A stretch of 20,974 nucleotides of DNA from a virus. Each line of letters starts with the position of its first letter. Within the stretch, counting starts at the first letter, position 1. Under the pieces are notes generated by a model, which was not told the origin of the DNA, searched no databases, and was given only the letters and a program-made list of their open reading frames with translations. A program made the position numbers and the translations under genes. Location: positions 1 to 20,974 of IMG/VR virus record IMGVR_UViG_3300035389_000059. The stretch is one strand, 5' to 3'. Of the stretch, positions 2,552 to 16,188 are shown piece by piece.

Positions 2552-2677
2552 TCACTCTGTTTTCATCACCGCCATCAGCGGATAATACGGCGGCTCCCAG
2601 CCGACGTCTCCCGATATGGTGTGGCTGTGTGTGTCGACTGTTTGGTGTCTCCCGGACACCAGTTCCTCGCAATCTCA
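2552..2677 (-). other. In-frame TGA and 40-codon continuation of the tail hub gene
   Basis: The conventional stop of the hub gene is TGA at 2677-2675. The same frame then stays open for 40 codons to a second TGA at 2554-2552. The extension contains THSHTISGDVGWEPPYYPL followed by MAVMKTE, a typical C-terminal end of a phage tail collar-type repeat. It matches the ends of the two earlier repeats in the protein (HSHDL...PRWVNLCFIQAN and NHTLTL...KKVYLRAWTKN). With the extension the gap to the next start is 15 nt, in keeping with this operon; without it the gap is 138 nt. Possible explanations are a nonsense substitution, stop readthrough, selenocysteine insertion, reinitiation at the GTG at 2659-2657 (GAGGA just upstream), or a sequencing error. 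Confidence 0.85.
2643..2661 (-). promoter_or_regulatory. Hairpin 3' of the in-frame TGA (SECIS-like candidate)
   Basis: On the coding strand TGGTGTC (2661-2655) pairs with GACACCA (2649-2643) around the 5-nt loop CGGGA. There are 20 nt between the TGA and the loop. Published descriptions of bacterial SECIS elements ask for a stem-loop shortly after UGA with a small apical loop holding a G in its first two positions, and this hairpin fits that loose layout. Such hairpins also occur by chance, and no selenocysteine gene is visible in the window. An alternative stem (ACTG/CAGT with GTGTC/GACAC) is also possible. Confidence 0.4.
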
Positions 2678-4861
2678 GATGCCGAAGACACCCCCGGCAT
2701 GGTCGTGTGTCAGGTTGCTCAGGGTGCCGCTCAGCCCCACCTCCTGTGTGCCACTGTTGGCATTATCGGCGTTTGCAGACAAGACGATGTAGCTGTCTTG
2801 TGTATCCGGCGTGCCGTTGTCGCCGTCACAAAACACACAGTCGGCTGGGATGGAGAAGACGTCACAAAACCCGATCATCCCCGACACCAGATCAAAAGCG
2901 GTGTTCTTGGTCCAGGCCCTCAGATAGACTTTTTTCAGTTTGTCCGTAATCGTCAGTGTCAGTGTGTGATTCGCGTGAGCACCTGCAGCCTCGAACTCTA
3001 GGGCCCCTTCCGAACCGGCCGTCGCCCCGCCCCCGCGTGTGCCGTGAGAATGGTCTGCAATAGCCGACTGCGTTTCATCCGCATAACTCCCACCGCCCGC
3101 GGTGACCATATCCGTGGCCCCCCGCATGATCAATTCCGGGAGGGAAAAGGGCTGGAGCCCTGTCGGTCTTATATTACTGTCTGTGAGAACGATCGCCCAG
3201 GCCGGCAATTGTTCCAGGTCGCAATTGGCCTGGATAAAACACAGGTTCACCCAGCGCGGCTCAAATTGTACGGTCAGGTCGTGAGAATGGTCTGTCGGGT
3301 CGGCACCGGCATTTACGTACCATGTGGGCTCTGATCCGCCGGCGGCGGCCAAGGCAAAAACATGGCTATACGCGCCGACATGCCCGCCGTCTGAAGCGCA
3401 GTTGAAGCTGATGGTTTTTGACCCCCCGACAGTCGCCGCCGAATGATCGGTACCGTGCCCGACAATGCACCGGTCCTTGACATCCGCGTATTTGCTCCAG
3501 CCGGCGGGAATATTGTCGTTGGCCTGGTAATAGGGAAATATCATCCCGGCCTTAATCGGCAAATCGGAGGCGGTTATCTTTTTCTCCCCGATAATAACAA
3601 CGGATGCCTTGTCAAAATTGTACCGTATGCTGCGGGCATAAATTTCATAGCTCGTATCGTTGCGCAGGGCCGTATCCGTCCACGATATCAATTGTCCCGG
3701 CAGGATTAAAGCCCCTTCGTTGGGGATCTCTATTTCTATTTGTTGCTGCAATAAAAACGTCAACACGTCCATCTGGGCGGTTTTGATATAAATCGCGACA
3801 TCATGGTAGGGCGTGAGGCTGCGCTCCTTGCCGTAGGCATACGCCGTCTTCCGGGTGGATTCGTGATCATAGGACTTTACGTAACTGCCGATCCCTTCGG
3901 TCACGGCCGCCTTTGTCCGCCATTTAGACCGTACCAGGCTCACCGGCGTTTCATACTCGTATTTCGCGCCGAAAAACCGGCTGACGGCGTACGTCCCGTT
4001 ACTCTGTTTCATGTCCACCAGGTACAATGTGCCGGACAGAATATAAAAAAGGTGGGTGCCATAGGCGGCCAGGTCGGAGAGAAAATCAATCAGCAGCTTC
4101 TGCCTGTCCGCCCAGTAATTAATGGCGGGACTGGCCGTGCGTTTTTTGGCGTTGTTGTATGTCAGGTCCAGGCCTGGGTATGTTCCCTGGAGGTACTGAC
4201 CGCAGGCCCAGTCCATGATCGTATCGATGGTGCCATCCTGACCCACACCCGACATGGTCACCGCGCCGGTAGGATCGACGGTCAGGGAAAATGTTCCGTC
4301 GCCGTTATCGCTGACATTTGCATTGATACCGATGCCATCGTCATACACATCCCAGTCGGTACCGATAACCACCGACGGGATACCGCCCTTGTGATAGGTG
4401 GGCTCGCCCCCGACATCGAACAGCCGTACGGGCGTCACGTGGGTGACCGTGCCGAATGCCCGGGGCAGGCACACCGTCCGGCTGTCGTAATTACAATCTT
4501 CGGCCAGCAGGCTGGCAGCGTATTCATCCGGGTGCACGTCATAGGTGACCGCCTCCTTTGTGTATGCCCGCAAGTATGCCCTGCCGGTGATGAGCGTGGT
4601 GGCAGCGGCTTCCGTGGTGTCGGTGTACTGGACCTGAAAGCTGGTCAGCTCCACCGGGGGGGGCCAGTCATCAACGAATACGTCAGGGGAGATGCTGATG
4701 GCGCCAAAGCCCATGCGGCAATACCCCCCGTATGTTTTCGCCATCTGGAACTGCGGCGGCGAAAATTTTATTATCCGATTTTTCCACAGGTGCGTGAGTT
4801 CGCATGTCTCATCGCTGATCCGGTGTGTTGTTCCGTTGATATTGATCGATACCAGCAGCAT
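2675..4861 (-). CDS. Tail hub / receptor-binding protein with collar-like repeats
   Basis: This is a 728-aa protein to the first TGA (769 positions if read to 2552). The ATG overlaps the tape measure stop by 1 nt (TGATG), the usual slot for tail hub genes. Residues ~1-440 look like a hub or tail-tip structural region. The C-terminal third has three collar-like units. One starts near residue 450 (IPAGWSKYADVKDRCIVG). The second ends near 660. The third, near 670-690, has CDGDNGTPDTQDS, close to the CDG-NGTPDLRDRF signature of phage tail collar domains. Each unit carries a His-rich HSH/HDH segment before a last beta-strand. It probably sits at the tail tip and contacts the host surface. The in-frame TGA removes the last strand of the third unit; see the separate entry. 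Confidence 0.85.
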   Translation of the reverse strand: MLLVSININGTTHRISDETCELTHLWKNRIIKFSPPQFQMAKTYGGYCRMGFGAISISPDVFVDDWPPPVELTSFQVQYTDTTEAAATTLITGRAYLRAYTKEAVTYDVHPDEYAASLLAEDCNYDSRTVCLPRAFGTVTHVTPVRLFDVGGEPTYHKGGIPSVVIGTDWDVYDDGIGINANVSDNGDGTFSLTVDPTGAVTMSGVGQDGTIDTIMDWACGQYLQGTYPGLDLTYNNAKKRTASPAINYWADRQKLLIDFLSDLAAYGTHLFYILSGTLYLVDMKQSNGTYAVSRFFGAKYEYETPVSLVRSKWRTKAAVTEGIGSYVKSYDHESTRKTAYAYGKERSLTPYHDVAIYIKTAQMDVLTFLLQQQIEIEIPNEGALILPGQLISWTDTALRNDTSYEIYARSIRYNFDKASVVIIGEKKITASDLPIKAGMIFPYYQANDNIPAGWSKYADVKDRCIVGHGTDHSAATVGGSKTISFNCASDGGHVGAYSHVFALAAAGGSEPTWYVNAGADPTDHSHDLTVQFEPRWVNLCFIQANCDLEQLPAWAIVLTDSNIRPTGLQPFSLPELIMRGATDMVTAGGGSYADETQSAIADHSHGTRGGGATAGSEGALEFEAAGAHANHTLTLTITDKLKKVYLRAWTKNTAFDLVSGMIGFCDVFSIPADCVFCDGDNGTPDTQDSYIVLSANADNANSGTQEVGLSGTLSNLTHDHAGGVFGI

Positions 4862-9189: not shown

Positions 9190-10239
9190 TTAGGCCAGCG
9201 GATCGGTGGTCCGTTTGTTCTGCACGTCGATTTGAAACGGCTGGGTGATGCCGGTCATGCCGGTGGGCGCGGTATCGGTGCCAAGCACCTTGAAGCTCAG
9301 GCTCATCGGGATCTTGCCCGGGCCGGAGATAGCCGCGTCGGGATCTATCACCTTCAGGTTCGGCAGCGAGATTTTGAACTCGTAATAATAAGTGGTCTCG
9401 ATGACGCCGCCCTTGAAATAGATCTCCATTTTTTTGCGCGTCAGGGCTTCCCAGTCGGTAAAAAACGTGTGGTTCGCATCGTTATACCGCGGAAAATTCA
9501 ACGTGAGCGTGGCCTGGGGAAACCCTTCGCCCACCGGTTCGTCCACGTCTTCATTGCCTGTCGTCAGGTCCGCCTCCATGGGGCGGTCAAAGGACAGATC
9601 AAACCCGCTCGGGTAGATGGCGTCCCCGATGTCCAGGGCGTCCCCGGACTCATCCCCCAGCCAGAAATGGGCGTCCTTGTTCATGATGATCCGGTTGCCC
9701 TTGTCCGGGTAGGTGAGGCTGGCCATGGTGGCCGCCGTGTTGATGACCGATGCCAGTTCCAGCTGGTTGGCGATCCCATCGGCGGTGAGTTTAACAGGGG
9801 CGTTCATCTCTCCGGACAGCCCGAACTTGTTGTATTTCACGGACGGGAATTCCCAGACCTTGTCCGATTTTTTCAGCATCGGCAACGTGGCAAACAATCC
9901 GGACACGTTGTCCGCCATCACATAGCTGTTGATATAGGCCGCGGTGGCCGCCTGCTGCACGGGGGCGCCCGCCGTGCCCATGATCAGCGCAATGAGCGTG
10001 TCCAGCCCCTCATAGCGCATATAAGCTTCGATACCGCCGCCCGCGTTGATCTTGCCCTGGTCGGTACGCTGGATAAAGGCCAGGCCCGCGCTGTCGTCAT
10101 CGATGTGCTCGATGGTCTGTTTGAACGATTCGGACAGGATTAATATGCCGTCGTTTGCGCCGGCGGCCACGGCCGTCCGCCAGGTGGCGGCTTTTTTCAG
10201 GCCCACGAGTATTTCTCTACCTGTTAATGGGTTTCCCAT
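9190..10239 (-). CDS. Tail tube protein (major tail protein)
   Basis: This is a 349-aa protein starting at ATG 10239-10237 after CGGAGG, within the end of the preceding small gene (23-nt overlap). The sequence is acidic and beta-rich, with a typical tail-tube opening (GNPLTGREILVGLKKAATWR) and many short strands (FDLSFDRPMEADLTTGNED, IETTYYYEFKISLPNLKV). Length and position before the chaperone pair fit a siphovirus major tail tube subunit. No sheath gene sits beside it, as one would find in a contractile Mu tail. Tube subunits polymerise around the tape measure to form the tail. Confidence 0.82.
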   Translation of the reverse strand: MGNPLTGREILVGLKKAATWRTAVAAGANDGILILSESFKQTIEHIDDDSAGLAFIQRTDQGKINAGGGIEAYMRYEGLDTLIALIMGTAGAPVQQAATAAYINSYVMADNVSGLFATLPMLKKSDKVWEFPSVKYNKFGLSGEMNAPVKLTADGIANQLELASVINTAATMASLTYPDKGNRIIMNKDAHFWLGDESGDALDIGDAIYPSGFDLSFDRPMEADLTTGNEDVDEPVGEGFPQATLTLNFPRYNDANHTFFTDWEALTRKKMEIYFKGGVIETTYYYEFKISLPNLKVIDPDAAISGPGKIPMSLSFKVLGTDTAPTGMTGITQPFQIDVQNKRTTDPLA

Positions 10240-15459: not shown

Positions 15460-16188
15460 TTAAAATTGATCGGCCAGGGCCGCCGGGTATTTTGACAGGT
15501 CCGGTTTCCATGGCGATTTGGCCGGGTTTTCATCCCACCCCGGATCAGGGATCAGGGGCCGGGCCGGCATGCGGACCCCGCTCACCGGGTCAATGGGTTC
15601 GATGAGCCCGCCGGTGGGGTCCTTGGTTTCGATGGTCAGGCCCTCCTCTTCGGCCACGTATCGGTGCACCGGGTTGACGCCGCACCGGCATCGATGGCCG
15701 TTGGGCGGGTACCAGGTATCCCAGAACGTGTGATCCGCCGGGAAGATCTTGCCGTCCAGGGCGCCGTGGGTGGGACGGGTGTCGCTGTCATTGACCGCGT
15801 CATATTCCCAGTAAGGGAAACTTTTTTTACTGCCGACCATCTGGTCATAGCGGCCCACGCTATAGGCGGTCTGGATGTTGTTTCGAAACACGGTCTCCAT
15901 GTGCCAGGGGGCCAGGCCGTCCCAGCCCCGGGTGGCCATGATCTCATCTAACCGCCCGGCAAAGTCCGCCAGGGTTTCGCCGTCGGTCAATGCTTTTCCC
16001 ACTGCCTTGTGGAGATCTTCGATGATATCCATGGACGATACCCGGGCCACGGTAAAGGCTTTGGCCTTTACCGCCGTTGCAACGCCTGCGAGTTCATCGG
16101 CGGTCAGGGGCACCTTATCGGCCCAGTAGGCGATGGCCTCGTCAAAGGGCAATGGCTCGATGGTGATGGTGTCGATGTTTTCGTCCAT
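15460..16188 (-). CDS. Head morphogenesis protein (Mu gp30/F-like, SPP1 gp7 family)
   Basis: This encodes 242 aa from ATG 16188-16186 with AAGGA 4 nt upstream. It carries the family signature at residues 134-173: DSDTRPTHGALDGKIFPADH followed by WYPPNGHRCRCGVNPV. Before it is an amphipathic helical stretch with MATRGWDGLAPWHMETVFRN and NIQTAYSVGRY. Such minor head proteins bind near the portal in the prohead and are needed for head assembly or DNA ejection. It follows the portal as in Mu, but across a 218-bp repeat-bearing gap rather than directly. Confidence 0.93.
   Translation of the reverse strand: MDENIDTITIEPLPFDEAIAYWADKVPLTADELAGVATAVKAKAFTVARVSSMDIIEDLHKAVGKALTDGETLADFAGRLDEIMATRGWDGLAPWHMETVFRNNIQTAYSVGRYDQMVGSKKSFPYWEYDAVNDSDTRPTHGALDGKIFPADHTFWDTWYPPNGHRCRCGVNPVHRYVAEEEGLTIETKDPTGGLIEPIDPVSGVRMPARPLIPDPGWDENPAKSPWKPDLSKYPAALADQF

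Follow-up and report, generated by a model that had tools for sequence, protein, structure and literature searches.

The window analysed here (positions 1-20,974 of IMG/VR virus record IMGVR_UViG_3300035389_000059, 20,974 nucleotides in total) stems from a Mu-like phage and contains a tail protein gene that is interrupted by an in-frame TGA at positions 2677-2675. Judging from the sequence and its homologues, this TGA is probably a selenocysteine (Sec) codon, and the same recoding probably occurs in three related phages at an invariant cysteine of the MuF head protein. Simple decay of the gene, generic readthrough and a genetic code with UGA as cysteine fit less well. The coordinates of all features are listed in Table 1.

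The tail gene, its in-frame TGA and the following hairpin

With the TGA codon counted, the full frame of the tail gene comprises 769 residues. A homologue search of viral_contigs and genome_contigs, in which loci L052, L064, L065, L071 and L072 represent one contig, returned L052 from a different virus record as the sole homologue. Identity to the window protein is 73.5% over 767 residues, and the alignment is unbroken across the TGA. Which residue homologues carry at this site had been raised in the preliminary description; in L052, the only one available, it is Cys, encoded by TGT. The description was also right in that 40 open codons follow the TGA up to a second TGA at 2554-2552, that the ribosome-binding site (RBS) of the next gene begins right after this second stop, and that the extension is conserved, as 25 of the 38 residues after the first TGA are identical between the window and L052. 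An open extension of 40 codons is not unusual by itself, as 38-42 open codons or more follow a number of gene stops within the window. It is the homology to L052 and to the ends of distant collar-like proteins that marks the extension as coding sequence rather than a product of chance. These distant proteins, which are encoded in bacterial genomes, end in PP[FY]YxLxxIMK like the extension does. By comparison, the previously described agreement of the extension with the ends of repeats 1 and 2 was reduced to a loose HxH likeness. Because the 40 codons are coding, the 728-residue form is predicted to lack the end of the domain.

Searches of viral_contigs, phages, plasmids and genomes gave no homologue with UGA at the site; such homologues are common for selenoproteins but not required. 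Collar-like proteins matched in the order of G029 and in the phylum of G030 are distantly related and lack Cys at this position, and the large HxH-containing proteins of L056-L062 turned out not to be homologous to the tail gene. The earlier designation of the gene product as a tail hub agrees with the gene's position after the tape-measure gene and with a weak match of residues 660-730 to tail-fibre structure 9qgo (E=0.0027), but has no support from Pfam or PHROG, where no match for the protein was found. The candidate Sec at position 729 lies between two HxH motifs and adjacent to a cysteine (Sec-Asp-Cys), in a repeat that keeps three further cysteines (666, 675 and 678) in both the window protein and L052. 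Residue 729 may have a redox or metal-binding role in the tail tip. AlphaFold models of the whole tail protein and of the last repeat were useless, with predicted local distance difference test scores (pLDDT) of 27 and 33, and for this reason no structural claim is made.

TGA in place of Cys is the usual signature of a selenoprotein, and bacterial Sec decoding requires a selenocysteine insertion sequence (SECIS) stem-loop after the UGA. A SECIS-like hairpin is present downstream of the tail gene TGA. Its loop starts 20 nt after the UGA and carries G at position 2, and its energy is -9.1 kcal/mol. It lies within all four constraints that were published for bacterial SECIS (bSECIS) elements, although the preferred N1-N2 loop pair is absent. 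According to these rules, the loop has 3-9 nt with G in one of its first two positions, the stem has 4-16 bp, the distance from UGA to loop is 16-37 nt and the energy is at most -7.5 kcal/mol (PMC13188914). Within the window, none of the stops of the 21 other genes is followed by a hairpin of this kind at -7.5 kcal/mol or below, and inside the tail gene 2.9% of the codon positions precede a hairpin within the rules. The best hairpin after the Cys codon of L052 reaches -0.4 and fails the rules.

TGA at an invariant cysteine of MuF proteins

In-frame stops were surveyed within homology-verified genes of about 70 related Mu-like phage loci, with gene ends and shadow frames excluded by eye. Since shadow reading frames give many false TGA/Cys pairs, only frames tied to homologues of window genes were kept. 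Four stops have strong homology on both sides. All four are TGA and all are aligned to Cys: one is that of the window tail gene, the other three are located in MuF genes (PF04233) of L008, L047 and L057. All three MuF TGAs fall on one residue position, namely the first Cys of the motif YPPNGxxCRC, which is invariant in every homologue. Among the 16 loci with this motif, the codon at this position is TGC in 11, TGT in two and TGA in three. The sequences flanking the conserved Cys position are intact at the TGA sites, and the pattern was found again in the records of the three loci. Reading UGA as a residue yields MuF proteins of normal length in all three phages, and the scores of the L057 and L008 read-through proteins exceed the Pfam cut-off by a wide margin.

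The hairpins after the MuF TGAs have energies of -14.1 (L047, within all bSECIS constraints), -6.8 (L057) and -6.0 (L008). They are stronger than those at 13 homologous Cys codons (permutation 3/560, p about 0.005; 3/3060, or 0.001, with the tail gene pair included). A comparison of L047 with its Cys-containing relative L031 (90% identical) revealed synonymous changes in 6 of 11 hairpin codons versus 34 of 230 codons elsewhere (p=0.0036), and linked changes TCC>TCG and AGG>CGA repair a mismatch in the stem. The MuF proteins of L008, L047 and L057 are themselves candidate phage selenoproteins, and their case is arguably stronger than that of the window tail gene.

One further TGA/Cys pair, L048/L032, was dropped from the survey because it is located at the natural end of the terminase. 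The two terminase genes are 99% identical; L048 has TGA at L048:1068 and L032 has, at the corresponding position of its terminase gene, a Cys codon that extends the frame, which looks like the loss of a natural stop in L032. Split annotations among the plasmid MuF matches were traced to gene overlaps. In one bacterial genome (L095, G985:C376), a MuF domain contains an in-frame TAG, likely a true nonsense mutation and a useful contrast.

Weighing of alternatives and proposed mechanism

Several observations weigh against selenocysteine. A single homologue is available for the tail gene, and the Cys site belongs to a variable loop that is not conserved among distant collar proteins. A hairpin within the same bSECIS limits follows about 8% of all TGA triplets, and one reaching -9.1 follows about 5%; for the first of these reasons the tail gene hairpin alone is suggestive, but not proof. 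Folds of the whole region are unexceptional compared with shuffled sequences. The upper stems of the MuF hairpins in L008 and L057 miss the -7.5 limit, even though their geometry conforms and wider local folds pass the cut-off. Furthermore, the synonymous excess in L047 is not significant against a second relative, L061 (p=0.23), and no MuF gene with TGA was found in bacterial genomes (none among 388 plus 204).

In the strongest competing explanation, a Cys codon was recently lost to a plain nonsense mutation, or only seems lost because of a sequencing error; the phage would be a decaying prophage or a strain able to cope with a shortened tail protein, and the hairpin would be due to chance. 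TGT and TGC are a single base away from TGA, hairpins of this type follow about 5-8% of TGA triplets, the tail gene case relies on a single homologue, and phage genes do carry nonsense stops, as illustrated by an in-frame TAG in 1 of 21 MuF domains from 190 genomes. However, in these genes Cys codons receive only about 2% of single-base nonsense changes, and the tail gene TGA also has a SECIS-like hairpin. Moreover, the 21 other genes of the window are intact, and TGA occurs independently at one invariant MuF Cys in three other phage contigs. We therefore regard this explanation as unlikely. The preliminary description had left the choice between a very recent TGA and one that is read through. 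Recent mutation fits less well, and readthrough is favoured in a specific form that had not been proposed there, namely selenocysteine insertion assisted by a SECIS-like hairpin.

Distinctly less probable still is readthrough by near-cognate tRNAs, in which a few percent of ribosomes would decode UGA, for example as Trp, and thereby make a minor long form whose inserted residue is unimportant. The conserved frame past the TGA agrees with such a process, UGA is the leakiest stop codon, and a downstream hairpin can promote readthrough. Relatives, however, have Cys at all four sites and neither a stop nor a variable residue, so the identity of the residue matters. In addition, the MuF stop interrupts the conserved motif about 70 residues ahead of the C-terminus, and most of the MuF product would thus be broken. 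If a changed code or an opal-reading tRNA gave UGA the general meaning of cysteine, or of a different standard amino acid, across host or phage, the alignment of all four sites to Cys would be explained. This is highly improbable because TGA is the ordinary terminator of six other window genes, Cys is commonly encoded by its normal codons (47 in the window) and no tRNA gene was detected among the tested phages.

For the preferred selenocysteine reading we propose that a ribosome moving past the UGA would meet the hairpin at 2661-2643, which would recruit host SelB, presumably the factor in use, together with Sec-tRNA. Sec would be placed at residue 729, where L052 has Cys, and the following 40 codons would be translated too, so that the tail protein reaches 769 residues and its last collar-like repeat is complete. 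Limiting selenium or SelB would lead to termination and the 728-residue form. Since Sec insertion competes with termination, both forms named in the preliminary description would still be expected, whereas the effect on host range suggested there is speculative. The phages examined yielded no tRNA genes, and therefore the Sec machinery must come from the host; within the window, neither tRNA-Sec nor any other Rfam match was detected. SelB scored above the cut-off in 2 of 5 named hosts of distant terminase relatives. On balance we lean slightly towards a general picture in which Mu-like transposable phages whose bacterial hosts use selenium repeatedly replace Cys with Sec in virion proteins (the MuF head protein and a tail-tip protein) and so tie particle assembly or infectivity to the selenium status of the host.

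If the proposal is true, annotation pipelines truncate real phage genes at UGA, and phage fitness is linked to host selenium metabolism. The UGA/Cys pattern would then be a clue to phage hosts, and a chemically reactive residue in the CRC motif of MuF would make the role of the invariant Cys directly testable.

Gene surroundings and relation to known systems

The window contains 22 genes arranged as in a Mu-like phage, with terminase, MuF and tape measure followed by the tail gene. The terminase is 46-47% to Mu, and the tape measure gene has PHROG hits. All genes other than the tail gene are open, and the gene order is collinear with that of L052. Two adjoining tandem paralogues at 381-1259 and 1260-1985 on the (-) strand correspond to a single copy in L052; the first of them ends in several units of a TFGGEGV-type repeat. 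A different tail gene of the window (9190-10239) has a homologue that occurs as a tandem duplicate in L054 (1335-2582 and 2636-3682) and likewise twice in tandem in L055 (8895-9884 and 10001-11041).

Table 1. Positions of the tail gene, the MuF genes and associated elements; window coordinates unless a locus is given.
Feature	Position	Strand	Remarks
Tail protein gene, 728 aa to first TGA	2675..4861	(-)	Directly downstream of tape-measure gene
In-frame TGA, proposed Sec codon, residue 729	2675..2677	(-)	Aligned with Cys (TGT) in L052
SECIS-like hairpin UGGUGUC-CGGGA-GACACCA	2643..2661	(-)	Perfect 7 bp stem, 5-nt loop
40-codon C-terminal extension	2555..2674	(-)	Completes last collar-like repeat: second HxH motif, WEPPYYPLMAVMK end
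Second TGA, proposed true end of 769-aa product	2552..2554	(-)	No SECIS-like hairpin after it
RBS AGGAGG of next gene	2547-2542	(-)	Just past second TGA
Next gene, 186 aa	1976..2536	(-)	66% to L052 gene; ATG at 2536
Window MuF, Cys form	15460..16188	(-)	PF04233 E=2.9e-20; codon TGC (15690-15688), corresponding to TGA in three related phages
MuF head protein (PF04233) with in-frame TGA	L008:6749, L047:3191, L057:3940	(+)	SECIS-like hairpin after each

Sec decoding and bSECIS elements are already known, but the open-access literature searched gave no example of such use in phage structural proteins. No phage selenoprotein surfaced among the open-access papers, and the open-access selenoproteome reviews and surveys searched do not mention phages. 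The closest parallel is provided by bacterial bSECIS selenoproteins such as formate dehydrogenase (PMC13188914), which share the in-frame UGA aligned to Cys homologues and a small stem-loop at a prescribed distance within the coding region. Known members are mostly redox enzymes of the host, whereas the candidates described here are phage structural genes for tail and MuF proteins. Among the selenoproteins of eukaryotic viruses, poxvirus glutathione peroxidase (PMC8310308) likewise depends on host Sec decoding, but it is a captured host enzyme with a eukaryotic SECIS, in contrast to core virion genes with bacterial-type hairpins. Stop readthrough in the coat gene of RNA phage Qbeta (PMC8310308) also results in short and extended forms of a structural protein. 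There the inserted residue is secondary, whereas here a Cys is replaced and a SECIS-like element follows. As to the Phage Mu protein F family (PF04233), its motif is kept in the read-through proteins, and these differ from the family in that three phages have TGA as the codon of the first Cys, which is invariant elsewhere.
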